Shown: positions 8,290 to 43,958 of the stretch, piece by piece
How positions within the stretch are numbered: position 1 is the stretch's first letter
Layout of the letters: each line of letters starts with the position of its first letter
Assembly (NCBI GenBank): GCA_022843805.1
Contig: JALHMY010000078.1
Span: forward strand, 1 to 48,106
Length of the DNA: 48,106 bases
Source: Fuerstiella sp.
GTDB taxonomy: Bacteria; Planctomycetota; Planctomycetia; Planctomycetales; Planctomycetaceae
Direction of reading: 5' to 3'
Notes under the pieces: generated by a model
Databases searched by the model: none
The model's input: only the letters and a program-made list of their open reading frames with translations
Told to the model about the DNA's origin: nothing
Made by a program: the position numbers and the translations under genes

Positions 8290-8385
8290 CCTACTCGCCG
8301 TCTGCATGCGACGGTCGATGTGACCGGAGCAGTTTGGTGTCCGATACAAAATCGCGTCGTTCGGTTTCACCGAAGCGGCTTTTAA
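8290..8385. repeat. Two-hairpin dispersed repeat, copy B
   Basis: Counterpart of 4215-4305. Stem 1 is CGGTC (8312-8316) with GACCG (8322-8326). Stem 2 is TTCGGT (8360-8365) with ACCGAA (8369-8374). The loops and stem sequences differ from copy A while pairing is kept. Confidence 0.6.
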
Positions 8386-8496
8386 CTGCGTGCGTGATGG
8401 TTTTGACGAGCGATGGACAGTCAAATCCTGGGCTCCCGTGAAGTGCTAACTTGAACTTTGTAGGACGCAGAATTAAGATCTCAGGTGTGATGGAAA

Positions 8497-8612
8497 TTAA
8501 TCGCCGAATCTGTGCCAACAGAGCGGGGGAACCACCCTTTTGGGGCTAACTCAAACTATTGAGCGGGGCATCTTCGGCTCCGAGCCCGTCAGCTAACTTC
8601 GCAGGCGTTCGA
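8497..8612 (+). ncRNA. Cyclic di-AMP riboswitch (ydaO/yuaA class)
   Basis: The conserved core of the ydaO class is present in order: GCCGAATC (8503-8510), GGGGGAACC with TTTTGGGGCTAA (about 8524-8550), a variable stem, then GCCCGTCAGCTAAC (8584-8597), TTCG and CAGGC (8602-8606). The P1 helix closes between AATCGCC upstream and GGCGTT downstream. The family binds cyclic di-AMP and in other bacteria usually switches off potassium importers and cell-wall genes. It sits about 170 bp upstream of an APC-superfamily permease, at the head of a potassium island, matching the known regulon. Confidence 0.92.
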
Positions 8613-8667
8613 GGACTCTCTTGTCGTGAATCAGCCACCGGTCATACGCAGGGCATAGGCGAATTCT

Positions 8668-8688
8668 GTGGATCTTCGTCAGATCCAC
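8668..8688 (+). promoter_or_regulatory. Hairpin in the riboswitch leader, possible expression platform
   Basis: A perfect 7-bp stem (GTGGATC, loop of 7, GATCCAC) lies between the aptamer and the permease start and is followed by the pyrimidine-rich CTCTCTGTC. It could act as a weak terminator or as part of a switching helix. There is no clean U-tract, so its role is an inference. Confidence 0.45.
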
Positions 8689-8781
8689 CTCTCTGTCACA
8701 TCACAAAATCGGGTTGAGAAGTGAGCTAATTCTCACAAAACGCTGCTCCAGACCATCTGGACAGTACGCCTGCGCTCCGGA

Positions 8782-10752
8782 GTGACTCTCTTGTCTGGAA
8801 ATGCATCTCGTGACCATCACTATGCGTGGTGGCTCATCATGTGTCTGTGCGGTGTCGACTATTTCAGTACTCTTGGCTACCAGCCATCCATCGCGTTTGA
8901 AGGAGCTGGTATTCTCTCGCCAATCGCCACTCTGGTGCTCGTGGCGGTGACTTTGTTTGGGGCGCTTCCGATCTATTGCCATGTGGCTGGTGAAACTCCG
9001 GACGGCGTGGGCTCCGTCGGCATGATCGAACGCATCTTTCGAGGCTGGACCTCGAAGATCTTTGTTCTGGTGCTGGTGGGATTTGCCGCGACAGACTTTG
9101 TGATCACCAAGACACTGTCGGCCGCAGACGCAACGGCGCATTTGCTTTCTAATCCGCTGTTCATGGGCTCTACACCCGAATGGATGCACAGCCAAATCGC
9201 ATTGACAATGTTTCTGCTAGTATTGCTGAGCGCCATGTTTATCAAGGGTTACGGAGAAGTCGTAGGGCTGGCGACCCTTCTTGTGGTGACGTACATAGGT
9301 CTGACAGCAATTATTATTGGTGCGGGACTCCTGTACCTGATGTCGCATCCGGAATTGGTGACCCAATGGATTGATCAGATTTCCAGTGGAGACTACCACC
9401 TGCACCACACTCCGATCTCAGGAAAAGGGCCTTGGGTTGCGTTGCTGATTGCCTGTCTGATTTTCCCCAAACTGGCTCTTGGTATGAGCGGTTTCGAAAC
9501 CGGCGTTCTGCATATTCACTTGATTCGTGGCACGGAAGAGGACCCCTCGAATTCTGAGGGACGAATTCGTCGCACGCGACTGCTTTTGATTACAGCGGCA
9601 TTGATAATGTCGGTGATGCTTGTGGGATCATCTCTTGTAACAGGTACCGGTACACTTATTCCGGTCGAAGAATTTCGAATGAGCCCTGATCGAGGAAAAG
9701 CCGTTGACAGAGCATTAGCGTATATCGCTCATGGGGACAGTCCGTTCGCGGTTTGTCCGTTCTTCGGTTCAGTGTTTGGCACAGTCTACGACATCAGCAC
9801 CATTCTTATTCTTTGGTTTGCCGGGGCATCTGCCATGGCCGGTTTGTTGAACATGGTTCCTCGATACCTGCCTCGCTACGGAATGGCTCCGGAATGGGCA
9901 GCCGCATATCGGCCGCTGGTGATCGCGTTTACTGTGATCAACCTGTTGGTCACGTGGTGTTTTAGTGCTGATGTGTCCAGCCAGGGAGGTGCTTATGCCA
10001 CAGGTGTTCTGGTATTGATGACGAGTGCTGCCATTGGGTCGCTAGTTGACTTGAGTCGAAAACCTCGCCCTGCCGAGCCGAGGTTACAGTTGCGGCGGAA
10101 AGGTAAACTTGCCGCGTTCGGATTGATTTCTCTCGTCTTCGTCTACACCACCACTGCCAACGTCATCGAGCGTCCCGATGGAATCATCATTGCATCGATT
10201 TTCATCGCGTGCGTGATGTGTATGTCAATTATCTCCCGGATCTGGAGGAGCCGAGAGTTGCGTCTAAATGAGTTTCGATTCGAAAACGAAGGTGACCGAA
10301 TGCTGTGGACAGACCTTTGTACTGACGGCGGCTTTCGTGTGCTGATTCCCCACAGACCGGGGAGCCGTTCGCTTGCAGACAAGGAGATCGAAGTTCGACG
10401 AAAACATCGTATTCCAGCGGAAGTACCATTGCTGTTTCTGGAGGTTCATTCCGGTGACACCAGTGAATTCCACAACACTCCAGTGATTTCTATACGACAG
10501 GAGTACGGTCGATTCATTCTCGTGGCTCGTGAAGTTGCGTCCGTCTCTCATACCATCGCGCAGATTGCTATCGAACTGGGCAGATCCGGCGCGCCGCTGG
10601 ATATTGTCTTTGGCTGGAGTATCGGTAACTCCCTGCAACTCGCCATTCAATTCGTATTGTTTGGACAGGGAGATGTCCCGAACAGCGTCTTCGATCTTCT
10701 TGAACAGGCAATCCCTGATCCCACCAGGCGACCCACTGTTCTCGTCGGATAG
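8782..10752 (+). CDS. APC-superfamily permease, probable potassium (KimA-like) or amino-acid transporter
   Basis: A 656-aa protein with about 12 transmembrane segments in the first 480 residues and a hydrophilic C-terminal domain of about 165 aa. The beginning (CGVDYFSTLGYQPSIAFEGAG, then LFGALPIYCHVAGETPDG) is typical of a branch of the APC superfamily. Overall architecture, membrane core plus cytoplasmic tail, resembles the KimA/KUP-type potassium importers. The c-di-AMP riboswitch in its leader and the neighbouring antiporter and Kdp genes support potassium as the cargo; from the sequence alone an amino acid cannot be excluded. The given start is a GTG; a TTG at 8791 has a better-placed GGAG and may be the real one. 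Expected to be repressed at high cyclic di-AMP. Confidence 0.8.
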   Translation: MTLLSGNASRDHHYAWWLIMCLCGVDYFSTLGYQPSIAFEGAGILSPIATLVLVAVTLFGALPIYCHVAGETPDGVGSVGMIERIFRGWTSKIFVLVLVGFAATDFVITKTLSAADATAHLLSNPLFMGSTPEWMHSQIALTMFLLVLLSAMFIKGYGEVVGLATLLVVTYIGLTAIIIGAGLLYLMSHPELVTQWIDQISSGDYHLHHTPISGKGPWVALLIACLIFPKLALGMSGFETGVLHIHLIRGTEEDPSNSEGRIRRTRLLLITAALIMSVMLVGSSLVTGTGTLIPVEEFRMSPDRGKAVDRALAYIAHGDSPFAVCPFFGSVFGTVYDISTILILWFAGASAMAGLLNMVPRYLPRYGMAPEWAAAYRPLVIAFTVINLLVTWCFSADVSSQGGAYATGVLVLMTSAAIGSLVDLSRKPRPAEPRLQLRRKGKLAAFGLISLVFVYTTTANVIERPDGIIIASIFIACVMCMSIISRIWRSRELRLNEFRFENEGDRMLWTDLCTDGGFRVLIPHRPGSRSLADKEIEVRRKHRIPAEVPLLFLEVHSGDTSEFHNTPVISIRQEYGRFILVAREVASVSHTIAQIAIELGRSGAPLDIVFGWSIGNSLQLAIQFVLFGQGDVPNSVFDLLEQAIPDPTRRPTVLVG

Positions 10753-11056
10753 TGGCCTCGATTTTTGCGTTCAAATCGTAAGCTGGCGCGGTGGGTAGAT
10801 CTGAGTGAGATGGCAAACCCTCGTGCAGTCCGCTTCAGATCATGAATTGATTTCTGCTTGTTGAACGCCCATTGAGATTCATGCACCTGTAACGCGCTCC
10901 GCAGTGGACGATGTCAGACACATGTTTTAACAACTGTTGTCTGGACAGCGGATGGGGCAGTGATTACTCTGGTGGAGTTTCCTGTCGCCTCTGGAACCAA
11001 AACCATGCCGCCGGAGAACTCAACGTTGAGGTTTGTGACGAATCAGGATTGTTGCT
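10753..11056. other. Intergenic region before the antiporter gene
   Basis: About 300 bp without a convincing gene, riboswitch or terminator. A frame from 10911 is open but has no family resemblance. Confidence 0.4.
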
Positions 11057-12475
11057 GTGGAAATCATCCAGGATGTTTCGGCTCAGGGTAAATCACCCAG
11101 TACTGCGCGCATCAGTCTCGTCTATCTGCTTTTGCTGGTTGTAACGATCGGTTGCTTCTTTGGCATACAGCACCTTGGAGAACAACTGCCGGGACAAGCG
11201 GCCGCAGTGAGTACCACGGCATCGACACCCGCCGCGCCGTCCAGACTTCATCTTCTGCCGCAGGTGTTGTTGGCCCTCATAGCAATCATAGTCACCGGAC
11301 GGCTCTTCGGCGCCGCTTGCCAATATCTGGGACAGCCCCGAGTCATCGGGGAAGTTGTCGCCGGAATCGCGCTGGGGCCATCACTGTTTGGTCGAATCTC
11401 TCCGGATGCAATGACCTTTGTTTTCCCCCAGAATATCTCACCGATTCTGGGAGTACTGGCACAACTCGGAGTGATCCTTTACATGTTTCTGGTCGGTCTG
11501 GAACTGAACTCAGGGCTGCTTCGTGCAAGGGCACATGCAACGGTCGCAATTTCGCATGCAAGCATTGTGACGCCCTTTCTCCTTGGAGCCGTTCTGGCGT
11601 TGTTTGCGTATTCACGATACGCGCCAGCAGGAGTTTCATTTACCAGTTTTGCACTGTTCCTCGGCGTTGCGATGTCCATCACTGCGTTTCCAGTACTTGC
11701 CAGAATCCTGACTGATCTCAAGCTTGATAAGTCAGAACTGGGTGTGATCGCCCTCGGATGTGCCGCTGCCGACGACGTAACCGCCTGGTGCCTGCTCGCC
11801 TTTGTGGTCGGGATCGCCAAGTCAAATCTTCAAGAGTCGGTCCGGACGATACTGCTTGCCGGAGCCTACGTGTTTCTCATGGTGGCGGTCGTGAAACCGC
11901 TGATCAGTTCGTGGTTGTCGAGCCGAAAGAACACTGACTTGTCGAGTCGACTTGCGGCCTGGATTCTGGTCGCGGTGCTCGGATCAGCGATGATCACTGA
12001 GTCGATTGGGATCCACGCAATCTTCGGAGCGTTTCTTTTGGGAGCAATGATTCCTCATGACAGCAATATTGCTGCATCATTCCGGCATCGGCTGGAGGAT
12101 GTCGTTTCGATCCTGTTGCTTCCGACCTTCTTTGCCTACACCGGAACTCGCACACAGATCGGACTGCTTTCCACGACGTCTGACTGGTACTTCTGTTTAC
12201 TGATTATCGGCGTTGCAACTGCGGGTAAATTTGGTGGAACTGTCGTCGCATCCCGTTTCACTGGACTCGACTGGCGAACCTCCGCATCGCTTGGAACATT
12301 GATGAATACTCGCGGACTTATGGAACTCATCGTGCTTAACATCGGACTGGATCTGGGTGTCATTTCTCCCATCCTGTTTGCGATGATGGTTCTAATGGCT
12401 CTGGCGACGACCGTTGCGACAACTCCAATTCTTCAGAGACTGCTCTCGTTGCGCGTTGAGGCTGCGTCGCAATGA
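11057..12475 (+). CDS. Cation/proton antiporter (CPA2, KefB/NapA-like)
   Basis: A 472-aa protein with an N-terminal membrane segment (about 20-38), a short linker rich in Ala, Thr and Pro, then the Na+/H+ exchanger domain of about 12 segments. Family signs are YLGQPRVIGEVVAGIALGPS (inverted-repeat helix 2), LGVILYMFLVGLEL, MSITAFPVLARIL, the CAAADDVTAW motif with the two ion-binding aspartates, and GAFLLGAMIP. CPA2 proteins exchange Na+ or K+ for H+. No C-terminal TrkA-N/RCK domain is attached, so it is not a full KefB/KefC. Position between the riboswitch-linked permease and the kdp operon suggests a role in K+ or Na+ balance. Start is a GTG. Confidence 0.88.
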   Translation: MEIIQDVSAQGKSPSTARISLVYLLLLVVTIGCFFGIQHLGEQLPGQAAAVSTTASTPAAPSRLHLLPQVLLALIAIIVTGRLFGAACQYLGQPRVIGEVVAGIALGPSLFGRISPDAMTFVFPQNISPILGVLAQLGVILYMFLVGLELNSGLLRARAHATVAISHASIVTPFLLGAVLALFAYSRYAPAGVSFTSFALFLGVAMSITAFPVLARILTDLKLDKSELGVIALGCAAADDVTAWCLLAFVVGIAKSNLQESVRTILLAGAYVFLMVAVVKPLISSWLSSRKNTDLSSRLAAWILVAVLGSAMITESIGIHAIFGAFLLGAMIPHDSNIAASFRHRLEDVVSILLLPTFFAYTGTRTQIGLLSTTSDWYFCLLIIGVATAGKFGGTVVASRFTGLDWRTSASLGTLMNTRGLMELIVLNIGLDLGVISPILFAMMVLMALATTVATTPILQRLLSLRVEAASQ

Positions 12476-13211
12476 GAGTGAGATCTTCAGTGCGCGTTCC
12501 CGTTCCGATTGAATCCCTTTGAAACGCCACACCAAACTGCTCAAGTCAAATTGCCGGATACAGAGAACAGATACAGATTGCTGGCATTTATTACGTCAAC
12601 GGAAACAGCATTCTGCCAGTTTTCCAGTGCATGCACTTCGAGACGAACCAAGTCTGGGTTTTTCTGACATCGAACAAACCACAGCGCCGTAAGTTTGTTT
12701 GCTGATAGTCGTTCGCAAGCAGTTCCTCTGGTAAGGTAGCAGGATTGCTGAAGTCTCGTTGGGAACTTTCGATGAAAATAATGCTGCACCGCGCGCAGAT
12801 CTGATTCGGACCTGCTCTGAGTCGCACATCAATGTGCAGACCGCACGGAAGTGGACAGATTCCGCCGAACGCTGACAATTCTGTCATTCGTTGGCAGGTA
12901 GAGTGATCAGTTCACGCAAGCATCTTTCGCCGTGTGAGAGGGACCATTCTGCGCCCTGTTCTTCGAGATGCGGCGCGACAAGTGCCACACAGAAGTCGCT
13001 TGTTTGCTCCTGCATCGGGAACGCAGTTGATGTGAAGCAACCAGTCAAAGACTCGTGCCTGACGAGGAATCATTTGGTCTGAATCTTGATAAAGTCCTGA
13101 TGCGATCAAGCCATGTATTGACACCTAATTGATACGACGACGGCTATCATTGGAGACATGGAACTGAAGGCCCACGGTTTTCTTCGGTAACCGCAAAGTG
13201 GAGTGTTCGAA
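12476..13211. other. Long intergenic region upstream of the kdp operon
   Basis: About 735 bp without a supported gene. It should hold the kdp promoter and the KdpE binding site, but no element could be assigned with confidence. A small hairpin (CGGTT...AACCG, near 13174-13193) precedes the first ribosome-binding site. Confidence 0.4.
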
Positions 13212-13310
13212 ATGAGTGATTTCGTGATGATCGGCATAACTGCCGGTTTGTGTGCTCTAACATGGGGTCTGATCGTGCTCTGCGATCGACTGCAAGGGGG
13301 CGGAAGATGA
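13212..13310 (+). CDS. Small membrane protein preceding KdpF (32 aa)
   Basis: The peptide begins MSDFVMIGITAGLCALTWG and continues LIVLCDRLQGGGR. It has one hydrophobic segment followed by a charged tail. A GGAG box lies 8 nt before the ATG, and its stop codon overlaps the kdpF start in an ATGA arrangement, implying translational coupling into the operon. It is not KdpF itself, which follows. I did not recognise a named family; it could be an accessory subunit of the Kdp complex. Confidence 0.7.
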   Translation: MSDFVMIGITAGLCALTWGLIVLCDRLQGGGR

Positions 13311-13399
13311 ACGGACCTGAACTAATTGGGTTGCTGGCAGCGATTGCGCTGCTGGCGTATCTGACTATTGCCCTCTTAAAGCCGGAGTGGTTCGCATGA
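13307..13399 (+). CDS. kdpF: Potassium-transporting ATPase subunit KdpF
   Basis: A 30-aa peptide, MNGPELIGLLAAIALLAYLT then [10 protein letters not shown], which is the expected size and pattern of KdpF: one transmembrane helix ending in a L-x-P-E-x-F tail. KdpF stabilises the KdpABC complex. Start and stop overlap both neighbours by ATGA. Confidence 0.9.
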   Translation: MNGPELIGLLAAIALLAYLTIALLKPEWFA

Positions 13400-15225
13400 C
13401 CGCTAATCACTGGATTCAGATTTTTTTGTTTGTCGGTGTCCTGCTGGCGACCGTGAAACCCCTGGGATGGTTTATGTCCCGCGTGTTTCAGGGCCAGCCA
13501 TGCGGCCTGGACCGGGTGCTCGGACCGATCGAGCGTTTGTTCTATCGCCTTGCGGGCGTTGATCCTAAAAGCGAAATGAGGTGGAAGAGCTACGCCTTCG
13601 CGGTGATGCTGTTCAGTGTTCTCGGCTTTGCATTCGTGTATTTGATCCTGAGACTCCAGGATCGCTTGCCGCTGAATCCTCAGGGCTTCTCTGCAAACAC
13701 GCCCGACTCCGCGTTCAACACAGCCGTGAGTTTCGCGACCAATACCAACTGGCAGGGCTACGGTGGCGAAACCACAATGAGCTACCTGTCTCAGATGTTG
13801 GCATTGTCTGTGCAGAATTTCGTCTCTGCTGCGACCGGAATCGCAGTGTTGATTGCTGTGATTCGTGGATTCACACGCCGCAGCGTCGAGACGATCGGAA
13901 ACTTCTGGGTTGATCTGACACGCTCGACCGTCTACGTCCTGCTGCCTCTGTCCATTGTCCTGGCACTTGCGCTTGTGTCGCAGGGCGTCGTGCAGAACTT
14001 TCAGCCATATCAATCGGTTGCCCTGGTGCAGCCGATCAGTATGGACGAACCCGTGATCGGTGCGGGCGGCACGCCGTCAGTCGACGCGGAAGGAAATGCG
14101 ATCACTCAGAAGAAAGTGATTTCTGAACAACAGCTGCCGATGGGGCCAGCTGCGTCGCAGATCGCAATCAAGCAGCTCGGCACGAATGGCGGTGGATACT
14201 TCAACGTGAACTCGGCGCATCCGTATGAGAACCCGACGCCGATGTCGAATTTTCTCCAGGTACTGTCCATTCTGCTAATTCCCGGAGCGTTGTGCTGGAC
14301 TTTTGGCGACATGGTCGGCGATCGTCTACAGGGCTGGGCAATCCTGATTGCGATGCTGGTGATCTTTGTTCCGCTGGTGATCGGAGTTGTCGGTGCCGAG
14401 CAATCCGGAGTACCGTCGCAAATCGCCATGGGCGTCGATGAGGTTGCCAGTGACATGCAGTCAGGAGGCAACATGGAAGGCAAGGAGCTTCGCTTCGGGA
14501 TTGTGAATTCAGGTATTTGGGCCGCGGCGACGACTGCAGCATCCAATGGCAGCGTGAATTCGATGCACGATTCCTACACGCCGCTGGGTGGACTGGTGCC
14601 GATGTGGCTCATGCAACTTGGCGAAGTCGTCTTCGGCGGTGTTGGTTCGGGCCTTTATGGCATGCTGATGTTCGCGATCGTGGCGGTATTCGTTGCGGGC
14701 CTGATGGTTGGTCGCACGCCGGAATACCTTGGCAAGAAGATCGAGGCCTATGAAATGAAAATGGCTGCACTTGTGATTCTGATTCCGCCGCTGGTCGTGC
14801 TGATCGGCACGGCCGTGGCGGTTAGCGGGCTGGGACTGGACTATGCCTCCGGCGAAGACGTGAAAGGGAATCTGAATAACCCTGGGGCTCACGGTTACTC
14901 AGAGGTGCTTTATGCGTTTTCTTCGGCGGGTAACAACAACGGGAGTGCATTTGCCGGGCTGACGGCCAACGAGCCGTTTTACAATTCCGCACTGGGCATT
15001 GCGATGTGGATATCACGTTTCTGGCTGATGATTCCGGTGCTGGCCATTGCCGGTTCGCTGGCTCGTAAGAAGTACACACCAGCGGGGGCGGGAACTTTGC
15101 CAACCCACAACACATTGTTCGTTGTGTTGCTGGTGGGTGCCGTGCTGCTTGTCGGGGCACTGACGTTTGTTCCCGCTTTGGCGCTGGGACCAATCGTTGA
15201 GCATCTGCAGATGACGGCAATGTGA
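13396..15225 (+). CDS. kdpA: Potassium-transporting ATPase potassium-binding subunit KdpA
   Basis: A 609-aa polytopic membrane protein of the SKT superfamily, the K+-selective channel-like subunit of the KdpFABC pump. The four selectivity-loop regions are visible: [45 protein letters not shown] with GGVGSGLYG, and [14 protein letters not shown]. The ATG at 13396 is preferred to the GTG at 13387 because a GGAG lies 8 nt before it and the ATG overlaps the kdpF stop. Length is slightly above the usual 560-600 aa owing to an insertion rich in Gly, Val and Ala after the second loop. Confidence 0.97.
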
Positions 15226-15227
15226 AC

Positions 15228-15285
15228 ATTTCAGATCTCAAATTTCAGATCTTGAATTTCAAATTTCAGACTACAAATTCGCATT
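15228..15285. repeat. Short AT-rich direct repeats between kdpA and kdpB
   Basis: The unit AAATTTCAGA and variants (ATTTCAGATCT, AATTTCAAATTTCAGA) recur several times within about 55 bp. The segment interrupts an otherwise tightly packed operon. Its role is unknown. Confidence 0.65.
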
Positions 15286-15334
15286 CATGTGCCGGTGGGT
15301 TTCAAGTACTACGCGCGGCATACGAGGTAATGTC

Positions 15335-17401
15335 ATGACTAGTAAATCTCGATCGCTGTTCGATCCACACATCGTGAAACAGGCGCTGCTCGATTCCATC
15401 AGGAAACTCAATCCGATGCGTCAGCTACGGAATCCGGTGATGTTCATCGTGTTCATCGGGAGTATTCTGACCACAGGGCTTGGCATGCACGCTCTGTCGA
15501 CCGGCAGCAGCGAATCACCTGCGTTTATCTTCGGTGTCTCCGCGTGGTTGTGGTTCACGGTCGTTTTTGCGAACTTCGCTGAAGCCATGGCCGAAGGACG
15601 CGGAAAAGCTCAAGCCGATTCGCTGAGATCTTCTCGACGCGATGTCACTGCCAGGAAGCTGAGCGAGCCTCGACACGGGGCGCAATGGCAGACAATCGGA
15701 GCGTCACAGCTTCGCAGGGAAGACGTCGTGATTGTTGAGGCCGGGGACATGGTGCCGACCGACGGTGAAGTCATCGAAGGCGTCGCGTCGGTCAATGAGA
15801 GTGCCATTACGGGCGAAAGTGCTCCCGTCATCCGCGAGAGCGGCGGCGACCGCAGCAGCGTGACTGGTGGTACTGTCGTGCTTTCCGACTGGCTGATTGT
15901 GCGAGTCACCGCGAATCCCGGTGAGACATTCCTTGACCGCATGATTTCGCTGATCGAAGGTGCCAAACGTCAAAAGACTCCAAACGAAATTGCACTCGAT
16001 ATTCTGCTGGCGGCAATGACGATTATCTTTCTGATCGTCTGCGTCACATTGATGCCGTTCTCTGTTTACAGCGTGGCGGCTGCCGGACAGGGTTCCCCTG
16101 TCACAGTAACGGTGCTCGTTGCACTTCTGGTTTGCCTGATTCCAACTACGATCGGCGGACTGTTGTCTGCCATCGGTATCGCCGGGATGGATCGAATGAT
16201 CCAGGCCAACGTGATCGCGACATCGGGTCGAGCTGTGGAAGCTGCGGGTGACGTGGACGTACTGCTGCTCGACAAAACCGGCACGATCACGCTGGGCAAT
16301 CGACAGGCCGTCGAGTTGATTCCAGCGCCCGGCGTTGACATCTTGGCGCTCGCCGATGCGGCTCAACTGGCTTCGCTGGCGGATGAAACTCCGGAAGGAC
16401 GCAGCATCGTTGTACTTGCCAAAGAAAAGTATGCCCTGCGAGGCCGAAATATCAATGAGTTGCACGCCACATTCATCGCTTTCTCGGCCCAGACGCGGCT
16501 TAGTGGGGTGGATCTGGAGGACCGCCGTGTTCGAAAAGGCGCGACTGATGCGATCGAAAACTTCGTGCGTGAGAGCGGAGGCGGGCTTCCAGCCGAGGTG
16601 CGTCGCACAGTCGAGGACATCTCCAAACGGGGCGGCACACCGCTCGTCGTCGCCGACGGTAAACGCACACTGGGGACAATTTATCTAAAGGACATCGTCA
16701 AGGGCGGAATGAAGGAACGGTTTGGCGAACTGCGACGGATGGGGATTAAGACAATCATGATCACCGGTGACAATCCGCTGACCGCTGCGGCAATTGCTGC
16801 GGAAGCTGGTGTTGACGATTTTCTGGCTCAGGCCACACCCGAAGCGAAATTGAAACTGATTCGCGAACATCAGGCGGGCGGGCGACTTGTGGCGATGACC
16901 GGAGACGGCACGAACGATGCCCCAGCACTGGCTCAGGCTGATGTCGCGGTCGCGATGAACTCGGGCACGCAGGCGGCGAAGGAAGCCGGTAACATGGTTG
17001 ATCTCGATTCAAATCCAACAAAGCTGATCGAAGTCGTTGAGATCGGCAAACAGCTGTTGATGACTCGCGGAGCACTCACGACCTTCAGCCTCGCGAATGA
17101 TGTTGCGAAGTACTTCGCAATCATTCCGGCTGCCTTCGCGTCGACTTATCCCGTTCTCAGCCGTCTGAACGTAATGCACCTGGCGACACCCGCGAGTGCC
17201 ATCCTTTCGGCCGTGATTTTCAATGCGATCATCATCGTGATCCTGATCCCGCTGGCGCTACGAGGCGTCAAGTATCGGGCCGTGGGAGCGGATCGTCTGT
17301 TGCGAGACAACCTGCTGATCTATGGGCTTGGCGGTCTGATTGTACCGTTTCCCGGGATCAAGTTGATCGATCTGTTGCTCGTCAGTATGGGGCTGACGTA
17401 G
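15335..17401 (+). CDS. kdpB: Potassium-transporting P-type ATPase subunit KdpB
   Basis: A 688-aa P-type ATPase, the energy-coupling subunit of KdpFABC. The phosphorylation motif [10 protein letters not shown] is present with the catalytic Asp at about residue 313, along with the actuator motif ITGESAPV, the hinge [12 protein letters not shown] and [19 protein letters not shown] box lies 6 nt before the ATG at 15335; the frame is open further upstream but without family similarity. It follows kdpA after 109 bp and precedes kdpC by 84 bp. Confidence 0.97.
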
Positions 17402-17485
17402 ACCTCGCTTGAGATCGAGCACGAATCGTTCAGTCGCTGTACGGCAAATCATCATTAGAAAAATCCGAAACCACGGAGTCAGATC

Positions 17486-18070
17486 ATGAATGCTCATTTT
17501 CGACCATGTCTTGTCCTCCTTACCCTGTTGACGCTACTGACTGGGGTCGCCTATCCGGCGCTGATCACGGCTGTTGCACAGGCCGTGTTTCATCACCAGG
17601 CCAATGGCAGTGTGATTATGCGGGAGGGCAAGGCTGTCGGCTCAGATTTCATTGGTCAGGCGTTCGACGGTCCTCGCTACTTCTGGAGTCGTCCGTCCGC
17701 AACTGGACCGACAAGTTACAACGGCGCGGCGTCGAGCGGTTCCAATTTGGGGCCGACAAATCCGGCACTACTTGATGCCATCAAGGGGCGAGTCGAAGTG
17801 ATCCGCGCCGCGCATCCAAATGAGACGAAGTCTGTGCCTGTGGACCTCGTGACCGCGTCGGCCAGTGGACTCGATCCGCATATCAGTCCAGCGGCGGCGG
17901 AGTATCAAGTGGGACGAGTCGCCAATGCTCGCGGACTCAGCGAAGAAAGGGTTCGTGAATTAATTGCCGGCAATACAGAAGGCCGCACTTTTGGCGCGCT
18001 GGGCGAACCATGCGTCAACGTACTTCGACTCAATCTGTCGCTTGACACCGAGGGTGGAAATCAGGAGTAG
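17486..18070 (+). CDS. kdpC: Potassium-transporting ATPase subunit KdpC
   Basis: A 194-aa protein with a single N-terminal membrane segment ([20 protein letters not shown]) and the KdpC body: [47 protein letters not shown] and [12 protein letters not shown]. KdpC is a periplasm-facing chaperone-like subunit that raises affinity for K+ or ATP. GGAG lies 6 nt before the ATG. Confidence 0.96.
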
Positions 18071-18145
18071 ACCGGACAGGAGACTGGTCTTCGCGGACCT
18101 TAGTACTGATTCAGACATTCCAATAAACTTGAGTATCCGTGCTCC

Positions 18146-20869
18146 ATGCCTAATCATGATCGTCCTACTCCAGAACAGATGCTGGCACGTGTTAAGTCAG
18201 AAGGCGAACTGCAGTCGTCTGATCGAAAACGAGGACGGTTAAAGGTTTACTTTGGCTATGCCGCAGGGGTCGGCAAAACGTTCGCCATGCTTCAGAATGC
18301 GAGGCGAGAGAAGGCCACAGGCGTGGATATAGTTGTCGGCTATGTGGAATTGCACGGCCGTCCGGAAACCGAGGCCCTGCTGGAAGGCCTGGAACAGCTT
18401 CCCTGTCTGAAGATTCCTTACCGTGGAACCACATTGCGAGAATTCAATCTCGATGCTGCACTTGCCAGAAAGCCAGAACTGATTCTGGTTGACGAGCTGG
18501 CTCATTCCAATGCACCGACTCAGCGACACGTCCGGCGCTGGCAGGATATTGAGGAACTGCTGGACTCCGGAATCGATGTCCACACCACGTGTAATGTTCA
18601 GCATGTTGAATCCCTGAATGATGTCATCGCACAGATCAGCGGTATCATCGTGCGGGAGACTGTTCCGGACGAAGTCTTTAACCACGCCGACGAGCTGGCG
18701 TTGATTGATATTTCAACGGAAGACCTGTTGGAACGGCTGCGGGAAGGAAAGGTTTATATTCCCGATCAGGCTGCTAAAGCTCTGCAGAGTTTTTTCCGCA
18801 GAGAGAACCTGACCGCACTTCGTGAGCTGGCACTTCGCCGCGCTGCGACACGAGTGCATGCCGATGTGGAAACGGCGAGACTCGGCAAAGCGACGCGTGA
18901 TGTGTGGGCCACGCAGGAACGTTTGCTTGTCTGTGTTGGCCCGAGTCCGACATCCGCAAAGGTCATTCGTGCGGCCAAGCGTCTGGCCGATTCGCTGGAT
19001 GCAGACTGGGTCGCCGTCAGCATCGATACACCTCAGACGGGAGGATTGCCTGAAGAAGCGCGCGGCCGACTTATTGCCAATCTGCAACTGGCCGAGCGTC
19101 TTGGAGCCGAAACAACGGCGCTAACCGGCGACGATATCGTCGCTGAAACGATTGCTTATGCGCAGCAGCGTAATGTCACAAAGATTGTCATAGGCAAGTC
19201 GGAGCCTTCCGCATCTCGCTGGTTCTTTCGCCGCCCTTCAGTCGTCGATCGGCTGATCAGCGACAGCGGTGACATTGACGTGTATGTGATCAGAGGAGCA
19301 TCGGAACCGCTCCCGATGTCCAGCCATTCCCCGAAACCGAATTTCCGCTGGCAACCGTGGGTGGGAACACTTGCCGTGATGGCAATCGCCACCGGCCTGA
19401 GCACTCTGTTTGACTCAGTCGGCCTGAGCGAAGCCAATCTGGTGATGGTCTATCTGCTGGGCGTTGTCGTCGTGGCCTTTCGCTGCGGACGGAACCAGGC
19501 TGTTGCAGCATCTATCCTTGCCGTTCTTCTGTTCGATATCCTCTTCGTTCCGCCCTATTATACGGTCGTCATCAATGACATTCAGTATCTCATCACGTTC
19601 GCTGTCATGTTGTTTGTGGGGCTGAGTGTATCGACTCTCGCCGCGCGCGTCCGTCGACAGGCCGAACTGTCACGTCGCAACGAAAGACGAGCGGAGGCTC
19701 TGTATCGTCTGGGCCGAAAACTGTCAGGAATCAATGGCCAGGATTTTATCGCTGCGGAATCGGAACGGGCCATCAACGAAGTGCTGGGAGGCAAGGCGGT
19801 GATCTTTCTGCCTCAGGATGGGCAGGTTCAGCCGATTCTCTCGCAGCATATTCAATTCGCTTCCAATCACTCAGAAATCGGGGCTGCTCATTGGGTTTAC
19901 GATCATGCTCAGATCGCGGGGCGGGGGACCGATACACTGCCGTCCGCACAGTATCTCTATCTGCCGCTGCTTTCCCCCAATGGAACAGTGGGAGTGTTGG
20001 CGGTTCAACATGAGGATGCCGCTCAACTTCACATGCCCGAGTATCGACTGATTCTGGAAAACTATGCGACACAGATTGCGATGGCTCTGGAACGTGACCG
20101 TCTGATGCTGGAATCGCAGAACGCGCGAGTCGAAGTGGCAACCGAACAGTTGCGCAATACTCTTCTCTCGTCCGTTTCCCATGATCTTCGGACACCTCTG
20201 GCCGTCATCTCGGGAGCCTCCAGTAGTATTCTTCGAAATCCTGCAATGACCGCGACCACACAGCGTGAGTTATTGCAGACGGTATTCGACGAATCGGATC
20301 GCCTGTCTCGGCTCGTCGAAAACCTGCTGCGTCTGACTCAGGTCACATCGGCTCAGTTCTTTGTGGCGAAGCAATGGCATCCTGTTGAAGATGTTGTGGG
20401 GTCGTCTTTGCGAAGACTGGAGCATCTGCTGGGACTCCGGCAGGTGAATGTAAAGTTGCCGACCGAAGTGCTATTGGGACAGTTTGACGCGGTGTTGATC
20501 GAACAGGTTCTGGTGAATCTGCTGGAAAATGCCTGCCGTTATACTCCGGCAGACACTCCGATCAACATCGCCGGATGGACCGACGGGGCGAGTACCGTGA
20601 TTGAAGTTTCGGACTATGGTCCAGGATTGGCGGCCGGCGATGAACTAAAAGTTTTTGAAAAGTTTCAGCGGGGGGCCAACGCAAAGCCGGATTCTCGAGG
20701 TGCGGGACTCGGACTTGCGATCTGCAGAGCAATTGTTCGCGCCCATGGCGGCGAGATCACGGCACAGAATCGTACAGAGAAGACAGGAGTTATCTTCCGT
20801 GTCCGCCTGCCGGTTCAGGGTGTTCCTCCTCATCTGAATATCGAAGACCATTTGGGAAAAGCTGATTGA
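18146..20869 (+). CDS. kdpD: Osmosensitive K+ channel histidine kinase KdpD
   Basis: A 907-aa sensor kinase with full KdpD architecture. The N-terminal KdpD domain has a Walker A motif GYAAGVGKT (37-45) and the VDELAHSN Walker B-type stretch. A universal-stress-protein-like domain follows (about 250-370), then four membrane helices (about 400-500, DUF4118), a GAF-like region (about 520-650), the HisKA H-box SSVSHDLRTPL (His about 679) and an HATPase domain with NLLENACRYTP, DYGPGL and GAGLGLAICRAI. In other bacteria KdpD phosphorylates KdpE on K+ limitation. The stop is 4 nt before the kdpE start. Confidence 0.97.
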   Translation: MPNHDRPTPEQMLARVKSEGELQSSDRKRGRLKVYFGYAAGVGKTFAMLQNARREKATGVDIVVGYVELHGRPETEALLEGLEQLPCLKIPYRGTTLREFNLDAALARKPELILVDELAHSNAPTQRHVRRWQDIEELLDSGIDVHTTCNVQHVESLNDVIAQISGIIVRETVPDEVFNHADELALIDISTEDLLERLREGKVYIPDQAAKALQSFFRRENLTALRELALRRAATRVHADVETARLGKATRDVWATQERLLVCVGPSPTSAKVIRAAKRLADSLDADWVAVSIDTPQTGGLPEEARGRLIANLQLAERLGAETTALTGDDIVAETIAYAQQRNVTKIVIGKSEPSASRWFFRRPSVVDRLISDSGDIDVYVIRGASEPLPMSSHSPKPNFRWQPWVGTLAVMAIATGLSTLFDSVGLSEANLVMVYLLGVVVVAFRCGRNQAVAASILAVLLFDILFVPPYYTVVINDIQYLITFAVMLFVGLSVSTLAARVRRQAELSRRNERRAEALYRLGRKLSGINGQDFIAAESERAINEVLGGKAVIFLPQDGQVQPILSQHIQFASNHSEIGAAHWVYDHAQIAGRGTDTLPSAQYLYLPLLSPNGTVGVLAVQHEDAAQLHMPEYRLILENYATQIAMALERDRLMLESQNARVEVATEQLRNTLLSSVSHDLRTPLAVISGASSSILRNPAMTATTQRELLQTVFDESDRLSRLVENLLRLTQVTSAQFFVAKQWHPVEDVVGSSLRRLEHLLGLRQVNVKLPTEVLLGQFDAVLIEQVLVNLLENACRYTPADTPINIAGWTDGASTVIEVSDYGPGLAAGDELKVFEKFQRGANAKPDSRGAGLGLAICRAIVRAHGGEITAQNRTEKTGVIFRVRLPVQGVPPHLNIEDHLGKAD

Positions 20870-20873
20870 AAGA

Positions 20874-21572
20874 ATGACTGTGAAAAGTTCAATTCTGATC
20901 ATTGAAGACGAATTCACTGTTCGCAAGTTCGTTCACACGGCACTGGTTGAGGCTGGGTACGCGGTGCTCGAGTCAGAAACAGCCACAGAGGGACTTCGGC
21001 TGGCAGGAGAGCACAGTCCTGCGCTCCTGCTTCTCGATCTGGGACTGCCGGACCTTGATGGAGTGGAAGTGATTCGACGCCTGCGTCAGTACTCTCGAAT
21101 TCCGATTATTGTGCTGTCAGCACGAACGCAGGAAAGCGATAAAATTGCAGCCTTTGAAGCCGGTGCAGATGATTACGTCATCAAGCCTATTGGGACTGGG
21201 GAACTGCTGGCCAGAATCCGAGTCGCACTGCGGCATGCAACGCAGGCCGCAGATGACACACCGGCAAGTTTGCACGTTCATACCGGAGAACTGGAAGTGA
21301 ACCTGGCCGACAGAGTTGTCTGGCGAGGCAAAGACATTGTCACGCTGACGACTTCTGAATACGACCTGCTGGCACTCCTCGTAAGGAATGCGAATCGATT
21401 GCTGACAGATCGGTTTCTGACAACCCAGGTCTGGGGTGATAATTCCGGCCGCAGTCTGACACAGCTGCGACTAACAATTGCGGTGTTGCGCCGTAAGCTT
21501 GAAGAGAATCCAACGATGCCGCGTCATCTTCTGACCGAACAAGGCGTAGGATACCGATTCTCGGACCAATAA
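20874..21572 (+). CDS. kdpE: Response regulator KdpE
   Basis: A 232-aa OmpR/PhoB-type regulator. The receiver has IIEDE near the N-terminus, the phospho-acceptor in LLLLDLGLPD (Asp 55), IIVLSA and a KPIGTGELLARIRVALR segment. The C-terminal winged helix (residues about 130-230) includes LTTSEYDLLALL, TQVWGDNSGRSLTQLRLTIA and the end LLTEQGVGYRF. Adjacent to kdpD with a GAAAG box before the ATG. It should activate the kdp promoter. Confidence 0.96.
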   Translation: MTVKSSILIIEDEFTVRKFVHTALVEAGYAVLESETATEGLRLAGEHSPALLLLDLGLPDLDGVEVIRRLRQYSRIPIIVLSARTQESDKIAAFEAGADDYVIKPIGTGELLARIRVALRHATQAADDTPASLHVHTGELEVNLADRVVWRGKDIVTLTTSEYDLLALLVRNANRLLTDRFLTTQVWGDNSGRSLTQLRLTIAVLRRKLEENPTMPRHLLTEQGVGYRFSDQ

Positions 21573-21786
21573 TCTTCGTTTTCATCACGTGTGCCGTCAG
21601 GGATATCCTGAGGAGTTCATTCCAGATTTATCGACAATCGTTATATTGGATTCGGCATTGCTCACTGGAGGGATGGAAAGATCAAGAGTATCCGGGCCAT
21701 TTCGTATAGTCGAAAGCTCCCTGCGGCAGTGCGAAGAATTCATCGGGCTCGGTCAGGTCGATTGCGGAATTCCCAGGGATGCGTGT

Positions 21787-22317
21787 GTGACCACTGTGGA
21801 ACTCAATGCTCCTCTGATCGTTGTGATTGAAGACGAGATCGCCATACTCCGGTTCCTGAACGCATCACTCAGCATTGAAGGCTATCGAGTTAAAGAGGCC
21901 GAGAACGCTCGTGACGGTCTGCTTTTGCTCCTGCAGGAATCGCCCGCTGCAGTGTTGCTGGATCTGGGACTTCCAGATCGTGAAGGGCGCGAATTAATCA
22001 CCGAACTTCGTGGCTGGTCTCGTGTGCCGATCATTGTGTTGTCTGCACGCGATCAGGAACGCGAAAAGGTGGCCGCCCTGGATGCGGGAGCAGACGAATT
22101 TCTCTCCAAACCCTTCCATGTCGGAGAATTGTTGGCGCGTCTGCGAGCGATCCTGAGACGGTCAGATGGGATTGGAGCAGGCGGCGAGTCACACGCGCAG
22201 GCGAGGTGCCGACGCACCAGTATTTGCTGAAGACGATCTGGGGACCGTTGAACGTTGAATAAACTTACAACCTGCGTGTCTTCGTCGCAACTCTTCGAAA
22301 GAAGATTGAAGAGAATC
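21787..22317 (+). pseudogene. Second kdpE-like response regulator, DNA-binding domain destroyed
   Basis: The receiver is intact (VVIEDE, LLDLGLPDREGRE with the acceptor Asp, IIVLSA, KPFHVGELLARLRAILRR) and resembles KdpE next door. After it the frame ends at 22230. The end of the winged helix is still readable in another frame (THQYLLKTIWGP, a stop, then LRVFVATLRKKIEENPSR), so about 45 codons of the domain are missing and the reading frame is broken. At 22318 the sequence switches to a RAYT C-terminal remnant. A GTG at 21787 is the likely original start. As it stands it could at most yield a receiver-only protein. Confidence 0.85.
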
Positions 22318-26166: not shown

Positions 26167-26392
26167 TTTTGAAGTTGGGCACTTTCTAACCGCGAAGCGG
26201 TGGCAGCATGTAGCCCATGGCGTAAGCCGTGGGAAAACGAAGCCAGCCCAACCGAAAGCCACGAAGTGGCGACAGCAATCTCTGCTGTCGCCACTTCGTG
26301 GCTTTCGGTTCAAAAGACACCAAAAACCGCGGGTTCACACCCGCGGCTACATGCTGTCGCTCCTTCGGAGCTGAAAGTGTGCAACTTCAAAA
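26167..26392 (-). mobile_element. 226-bp palindromic MITE, copy 1
   Basis: Bounded by inverted repeats (TTTTGAAGTTGGGCACTTTC left, GAAAGTGTGCAACTTCAAAA right; two mismatches). It has the same internal order of hairpins as 39761-39986 but in reverse orientation, including a central palindrome of about 20-nt arms (CCACGAAGTGGCGACAGCA and its complement). It lies at the edge of an IS4-type derivative; no target duplication is visible here (CCGCGGG against CCGTAAGC). Confidence 0.85.
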
Positions 26393-39760: not shown

Positions 39761-39986
39761 TTTTGAAGTTGCACACTTTCAGCTCCGAAGGAGCGACAGC
39801 ATGTGCCCGCGGTTGTCAACCCGCGGTTTTTGGTGTCGTCTGAACCACCAGTCACGAAGTGGCGACAGCAAAGTTTGCTGTCGCCACTTCGTGGCTTTCG
39901 GTTGGGATGGCTTCGTTTTCCCACGGCTTACGCCCTGGGCTACATGCTGCCACCGCTTCGCGGTTAGAAAGTGTGCAACTTCAAAA
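39761..39986 (+). mobile_element. 226-bp palindromic MITE, copy 2, with 8-bp target duplication
   Basis: Perfect 20-bp terminal inverted repeats (TTTTGAAGTTGCACACTTTC and its complement). CCGCCAGC is present on both sides (39753-39760 and 39987-39994), while the empty site in RAYT copy 1 has a single CCACCAGC. Internally there are hairpins GCTCC-gaa-GGAGC, a CCGCGG pair, a long central palindrome (about 39853-39893) and ACCGC-ttc-GCGGT. It has no coding capacity. Confidence 0.93.
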
Positions 39987-43732: not shown

Positions 43733-43958
43733 TTTGGAAGTTGCACACTTTCAGCTCCGAAGGAGCGACAGCATGTGCCCGCGGGTGTCAACCCGCAGTT
43801 TTTGGTGTCATCTGAACCACCAGCCACGAAGTGGCGACAGCAAAGTTTGCTGTCGCCACTTCGTGGCTGGTGGTTGGGATGGCTTCGTTTTCCCACGGCT
43901 TACGCCCTGGGCTACATGCTGCCACCGCTTCGCGGTTAGAAAGTGTGCAACTTCAAAA
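43733..43958 (+). mobile_element. 226-bp palindromic MITE, copy 3, with 8-bp target duplication
   Basis: Nearly identical to copy 2 and at the same site and orientation in the RAYT element, flanked by CCGCCAGC on both sides (43725-43732 and 43959-43966). The left terminal repeat starts TTTGGAAG, a single change. Copies 2 and 3 therefore descend from one insertion. Confidence 0.93.

Follow-up and report, generated by a model that had tools for sequence, protein, structure and literature searches.

Probable control of a KimA/KUP-like permease by a standard c-di-AMP riboswitch in a planctomycete

Upstream of a permease gene in a 48,106-nt stretch of planctomycete DNA, in the following called the window, we found an aptamer of the ydaO/yuaA class, and we consider it probable that a standard c-di-AMP riboswitch lowers the expression of a KimA/KUP-like K+ importer at this locus. 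By computation we observed the aptamer with its core, covariation of its pseudoknot across a set of aptamer copies, candidate cyclase and phosphodiesterase genes in the genome, a predicted fold and site residues of the permease, and a tie between switch and permease that is repeated in other genomes. The switch is ordinary and the unnamed permease subfamily is the newer part. The well-understood circuit of c-di-AMP and K+ would hereby be extended to Planctomycetota, and a lead to function would be gained for a permease family without a curated model, of which one collection of named genomes holds 386 related stretches. The locus is also a candidate for a KimA relative that is controlled by the switch alone. 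In open-licence full texts we found no experimental work on a ydaO switch in Planctomycetota; PMC2864571 names the ydaO riboswitch and planctomycetes, in separate passages. The features referred to below are the following:

8492–8622, plus strand: c-di-AMP riboswitch aptamer, RF00379 (cmscan, 81.5 bits)
8502–8607, plus strand: P1 closing helix, 8502–8505 with 8604–8607, and the next helix, 8523–8528 with 8597–8602 (Rfam alignment)
8571–8576, plus strand: pseudoknot 5' strand UCUUCG, partner 8610–8615 (energy test over a set of 43 copies)
8610–8615, plus strand: pseudoknot 3' strand CGAGGA directly after P1, complementary to 8571–8576
8608–8790, plus strand: leader from aptamer to gene (terminator scan and folding)
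8668–8688, plus strand: conserved leader hairpin, 8668–8675 with 8681–8688, then CTCTCTGT (both-sided changes)
8766–8774, plus strand: candidate anti-P1 strand, complementary to 8600–8608, 5 nt 5' of GGAG 8779–8782 (folding, shuffles)
8782–10752, plus strand: predicted KimA/KUP-like APC-superfamily permease, 656 aa from GTG 8782 (AF2 model; nearest PDB entries KimA)
10255–10749, plus strand: permease C-terminus, predicted cytosolic domain with weak similarity to USP (AF2 pLDDT 83; Z 7.8 and 7.6)

Aptamer and long-range pseudoknot

The Rfam model of the c-di-AMP riboswitch (RF00379, ydaO/yuaA) matches the window once and over its full length (model positions 1–134 of 134, E 1.6e-17), with a score above the gathering score of 38 bits. 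The sequence-only reading had recognized ydaO core blocks and a closing P1 helix at 8497–8612, which falls within the match, and had suggested the covariance model and a search for further copies as checks. Its assignment stands: of the refuting conditions that it had named, neither a score under gathering nor a genome lacking a DAC protein came true. When the whole genome was searched (9.2 Mb in 172 contigs, completeness 100), the only RF00379 match among the 150 of 194 candidates scored was that at 8492–8622. In an alignment of 26 aptamer copies, 42 columns are invariant in the 22 other planctomycete rows, i.e. those outside the window's clade, and 41 of these are kept by the window.

In the same alignment 97.1% of cells are paired in P1 and 98.1% in the next helix. 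Over all named pairs 81.5% of cells are paired in comparison to 77.3% in shuffled alignments, and the covariation score is 0.172 for the native and 0.104 for the shuffled alignment; for both measures, which ignore kinship, none of 500 shuffles reached the native value. Two others of the five pairing measures were matched by 6 and 7 of 500 shuffles. Helices 4, 6 and 7 of the named structure are poorly paired (71.2%, 36.1% and 60.6%), for helices 6 and 7, as we think, because the register was taken from the window.

The crystal structure of a ydaO aptamer contains a pseudoknot (PMC5393176), and its strands were assigned from the printed sequence of that paper. In the window the corresponding loop and tail are complementary at six positions. 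Of 51 aptamer copies 43 entered the energy test, eight being not parseable. Loop and tail of the same copy pair with a mean of -15.8 kcal/mol, in contrast to -12.4 kcal/mol for swapped partners, and none of 2000 permutations was as low. The long-range pseudoknot covaries across this set of 43. The window's own pair (-11.6 kcal/mol) is not below the swapped mean, and support for the pseudoknot therefore comes from the set.

With the ydaO/yuaA class the element shares the full-length match, P1, the core, the pseudoknot strands and the position before a K+-type transporter gene. It differs in its planctomycete host, in the lack of a terminator-like site outside the aptamer according to a simple scan, and in a change confined to the clade, next to the GGG in one arm: the window, L111 and L113 read GAGCGGG and L112 reads GAGAGGG (loci of permease relatives, see below), whereas 15 of the 22 other rows read GCGTAGG. 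The best reading is an ordinary c-di-AMP riboswitch, new as a member but not as a class, with an aptamer that would bind c-di-AMP.

Permease and its relation to KimA

The permease frame begins 159 nt past the aptamer match on the same strand; an alternative start, TTG 8791, lies 9 nt after GGAG 8779–8782. An APC-superfamily permease related to KimA behind the switch, as the sequence-only reading had it, is supported. Its label "KimA-like" held in part: predicted fold and site residues agree with it at 13–14% identity, but none of the family models recognises the protein. Neither Pfam and NCBIfam nor the PDB sequences gave a match for it, and a 58-row family profile found none among the PDB sequences either. 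This profile goes back to the best 80 of the 386 related stretches, from which 74 loci were tested for frame, 72 were open and 57 were used together with the window. The family is strongly conserved in this alignment, and Pfam matches of its 58 members are scattered and weak; K_trans and AA_permease_2 do not match the window protein and are not among the 22 weak Pfam families of the members.

The AF2 model of the permease has a pLDDT of 85 and a pTM of 0.82. The first three PDB entries in Foldseek are all KimA (8b70, E 6.4e-14 with TM 0.55 by query; 6s3k, 1.1e-12; 8b71, 1.8e-12), ranks 4–18 are NKCC/NCC/KCC cation-chloride cotransporters, and amino-acid transporters follow from rank 19. Structure comparison to 8b70, 6s3k and 8b71 gave Z 39.0, 36.2 and 38.6 with an rmsd of 13.9–14.8 over both domains (13.9 over 510 residues at Z 39.0) and the 13–14% identity mentioned. 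A second line runs through sequence profiles: the permease profile matches that of eight planctomycete proteins, KimA-like or from the APC cluster, with probability 98.3 and E 2.3e-14, and their profile in turn matches KimA 6s3k at E 1.2e-86. The C-terminal domain alone reaches Z 7.8 and 7.6 at best against USP folds, which is within the background range of the tool, and Foldseek found no match for it at E ≤ 0.001.

Residue roles in KimA were taken from PMC6994465 and equivalences were carried through the two profile alignments, i.e. permease versus the eight planctomycete proteins and these versus 6s3k. KimA D36, Y43, T121, S125, E233 and Y377 correspond to D26, Y33, T109, S113, E239 and Y405, each in 58 of 58 members; T230 corresponds to S236 (58/58) and D117 to D105 (51/58). 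Judged by these alignments, the K+-site and proton-coupling residues of KimA are kept in the permease family. No clear equivalent emerged for Arg337, by which KimA contacts c-di-AMP (PMC10284832). When the alignment is anchored on a nearby Pro, the position is occupied by E371 (58/58); by hhalign it is A374 in the window protein, with Arg in 25 of the 58 members. The two alignments differ, and neither puts an Arg of the window protein at this position; Arg377 lies close by and is found in 49 of 58 members.

In comparison to KimA of Bacillus subtilis (6s3k, 8b70, 8b71) the permease therefore shares the LeuT-fold TM domain and a cytosolic alpha/beta domain, both predicted here, as well as the conserved residues. 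It differs in its low identity without a common family model, in a C-terminal domain that by itself matches USP only weakly, and in the absence of an Arg aligned with Arg337 from the window protein. KUP/Kup proteins (Pfam K_trans) belong to the same superfamily, via KimA, and a Kup gene is a ydaO target in the phylum (L045), but the window permease has no K_trans match. It is likely that this protein belongs distantly to the KimA branch among K+ importers of the proton-coupled KUP type, and K+ would be its substrate.

The switch could also act as described on a permease that carries an amino acid or another osmolyte. The TM domain superposes on the amino-acid transporter ApcT with Z 34.6 at 2.9 Å, and on ApcT, AdiC and CAT-type transporters at about 3–4.5 Å, and ydaO-controlled genes are known to include amino acid transporters (PMC7266159). 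We nevertheless regard this as unlikely, considering that Foldseek places KimA ahead of the first amino-acid transporter, that the residues of the K+ site do not vary, the proton-coupling Glu among them, and that in two genomes the permease adjoins a switch-controlled KimA-like gene (L247 and L248, see below).

Recurrence of the tie and genes downstream

We compared the loci of the best 80 of the 386 permease-related stretches. The switch lies upstream of the permease relative in five planctomycete loci (L111, L112, L113, L137 and L142) and in one from Pyrinomonadaceae, Acidobacteriota (L190, permease identity 47%), corresponding to 6 of 75 loci of relatives for which 400 nt or more of upstream sequence was available. 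These six were found with a model built partly from L111–L113, and Rfam's own RF00379 confirms all of them above gathering. An eighth match of the model, L153, was taken as noise (12.7 bits, E 0.86). L111 and L112 come from one genome, L111 with an internal stop and L112 with a late frame break. A search in the phylum of L190 added two of 29 loci (L247, L248) with the order window-type permease, switch, KimA-like gene. From these six loci and L247/L248 we conclude that permease and switch co-occur repeatedly across two phyla, most relatives being without a switch. Within the sample of the window's phylum the permease was matched in 3 of 294 genomes, its own included.

The genome of the window holds a second permease relative in two pieces, apparently broken (G000, contig C8, 46169–47200; L109 and L110). 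The pieces have 52% and 58% identity over query residues 12–206 and 324–419, and the genome's sole ydaO match lies elsewhere.

The statement that ydaO RNAs are mostly described in Gram-positive bacteria, also part of the sequence-only reading, proved too narrow: they occur in six phyla according to PMC6488665, and in our samples ydaO occurs in 40 of 294 genomes from the window's phylum (strict filters) and in 33 of 199 from that of L190. For 44 other planctomycete copies we took the longest ORF on the same strand starting within 700 nt downstream as the target, and clusters were named by Pfam on ten representatives. KimA-like/APC (17) and TrkH (17) clusters dominate, followed by SPFH (3) and Kup (2). 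Altogether 36 of the 44 copies precede K+-transporter-like clusters (KimA-like, TrkH, Kup); for the remaining eight the target is of another kind or was not readable. The window permease falls into none of the target clusters.

A second ydaO copy in the genome of L113 lies ahead of an SPFH-domain gene (L249, 4104–6705, minus strand), and in L032, L046 and L061 too the switch is followed by genes of the SPFH cluster. Another planctomycete copy (L036, 2634–3187) lies before an ORF that the contig end truncates, and the start of this ORF resembles what we take to be trehalose-6-phosphate synthase.

Further downstream in the window a CPA2-like antiporter gene (11057–12475) is followed by kdpA from 13387, 2.6 kb past the permease, and by kdpB, kdpC, kdpD and kdpE. 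The complete kdp system described by the sequence-only reading is hence real, but its link to the switch was not borne out and we rejected kdp as a switch target. None of kdpA–D was found near permease relatives in 83 loci (flanks of at most 4 kb, some shorter). Moreover, the motif (A/G/C)xSxSx2N(Y/F) of c-di-AMP-binding KdpD (PMC8214093) is absent from the window KdpD, which has GPSPTSAKV at the start of its USP domain. According to PMC4686210, S. aureus-like KdpD USP domains are found only in Firmicutes and Proteobacteria. Directly after kdpE lies a second KdpE-like receiver (21589–22230); its residues 77–193 match KdpE at profile positions 4–120 of 225, and the DNA-binding half seems to be absent.

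A related possibility is that the switch mainly serves the antiporter and the kdp operon, with the permease as the first gene of a long transcript. All annotated genes from 8782 to 21572 are on the plus strand, and in Bacillus thuringiensis a c-di-AMP switch controls kdpFABC (PMC6488665). The genes are however separated by gaps of 304 nt (permease to antiporter) and 911 nt (antiporter to kdpA), the kdp cluster has its own KdpDE, and besides the lack of kdpA–D within the flanks of the 83 loci (at most 4 kb), CPA2 matches occur there in only two of them, both upstream on the opposite strand. We consider this arrangement very improbable.

Least probable of all is a relic aptamer or one no longer able to bind c-di-AMP, to which the GAGCGGG change, the lack of a switch in most relatives and the window's modest pseudoknot pairing might point, but against which stand the full-length RF00379 match with 41 of 42 invariant columns and a core that is near-identical across the six leaders while their flanks have diverged.

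Leader, c-di-AMP enzymes and proposed circuit

For the leader we looked for signs of a regulatory mechanism between aptamer and gene. The simple scan of 8300–8900 returned a single terminator-like site, 8597–8614, which overlaps the aptamer (0.4 expected by chance), and none outside it. An intrinsic terminator with U-tract, as in the terminator-type switch of PMC6488665, was rejected on these grounds. The leader hairpin shows both-sided changes in 4 of its 8 pairs among the six leaders. In the free fold, 8766–8774, just ahead of the GGAG, is paired with the 3' strand of P1 (8600–8608). Among 300 shuffles each, 10 were as low as this helix for the window, 2 for L111, none for L112 and 44 for L142, in contrast to 150 for L190, 282 for L137 and 300 for L113. 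The anti-P1 helix thus stands out from shuffles for the window, L111 and L112, to a lesser degree for L142, and for none of the other three. Since it is clear in those three leaders only, we treat it as a lead: perhaps the leader acts by exchange of P1 and anti-P1 near the ribosome-binding site. We do not claim that the formed aptamer goes along with a sequestered ribosome-binding site, for which a single fold is the basis. A 12-nt direct repeat GACTCTCTTGTC (8614–8625 and 8784–8795) was dropped, its first copy not being kept in L111 and L112.

The sequence-only reading had also called for a diadenylate cyclase search. We found one DAC-domain protein in the genome (E 1.5e-23, 301 aa), so that a candidate source of the ligand is present. 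It carries a DGA motif and RHW where CdaA has RHR. Its best NCBIfam model is DacZ (NF041371) with 146.6 bits; because this is below the equivalog cut-off of 430, we call it DacZ-like only. A relative was present in all 21 genomes searched, its own included, and 19 other sequences were aligned (DGA in 18, DGG in one, RHW in 15). DacZ-branch proteins from Planctomycetales have been published before (PMC6741144). DAC matches occur in 271 of 294 genomes of the phylum sample, among them, when the two lists are compared, 38 of the 40 ydaO-bearing genomes. Being near-universal, DAC presence is weak evidence for the switch. A candidate phosphodiesterase was found as a PF07698 match (73.6 bits, 784-aa frame), with HDIGK read by eye; this 7TM-HD family is presumably the PgpH family.

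In the proposed circuit the riboswitch would form part of the 5' leader on the mRNA that encodes the permease. With K+ plentiful, c-di-AMP from the DacZ-like cyclase would rise and bind the aptamer, P1 and the pseudoknot would be stabilised, and permease expression would be lowered. At low K+ the PgpH-like phosphodiesterase would let c-di-AMP fall and the permease would be made. The OFF direction is taken from the riboswitch class by analogy: OFF control of a K+ importer is published, and KimA itself is under a c-di-AMP riboswitch (PMC6488665). It is conceivable, although we hold it to be rather doubtful as a whole, that the permeases form a novel subfamily of KimA/KUP K+ importers across Planctomycetota and Acidobacteriota, in which the direct c-di-AMP brake of KimA may be lost and control placed in the riboswitch, with the signal from an archaeal-type (DacZ-like) cyclase.

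Apart from this locus, the window contains four matches to the Acido-Lenti-1 RNA (RF01687), at 26188–26233 on the minus strand and at 26327–26372, 39920–39965 and 43892–43937 on the plus strand. They are embedded in 238-nt repeats, which are dispersed and occur also as inverted copies, next to a near-perfect palindrome of 61 nt. Genome-wide we counted at least 60 matches at E ≤ 0.001, at least 25 of them over the cut-off, among the 150 of 1453 candidates scored. Several are inverted pairs 139–151 nt apart, and in this genome the "sRNA" acts as multicopy repeats or mobile elements do.
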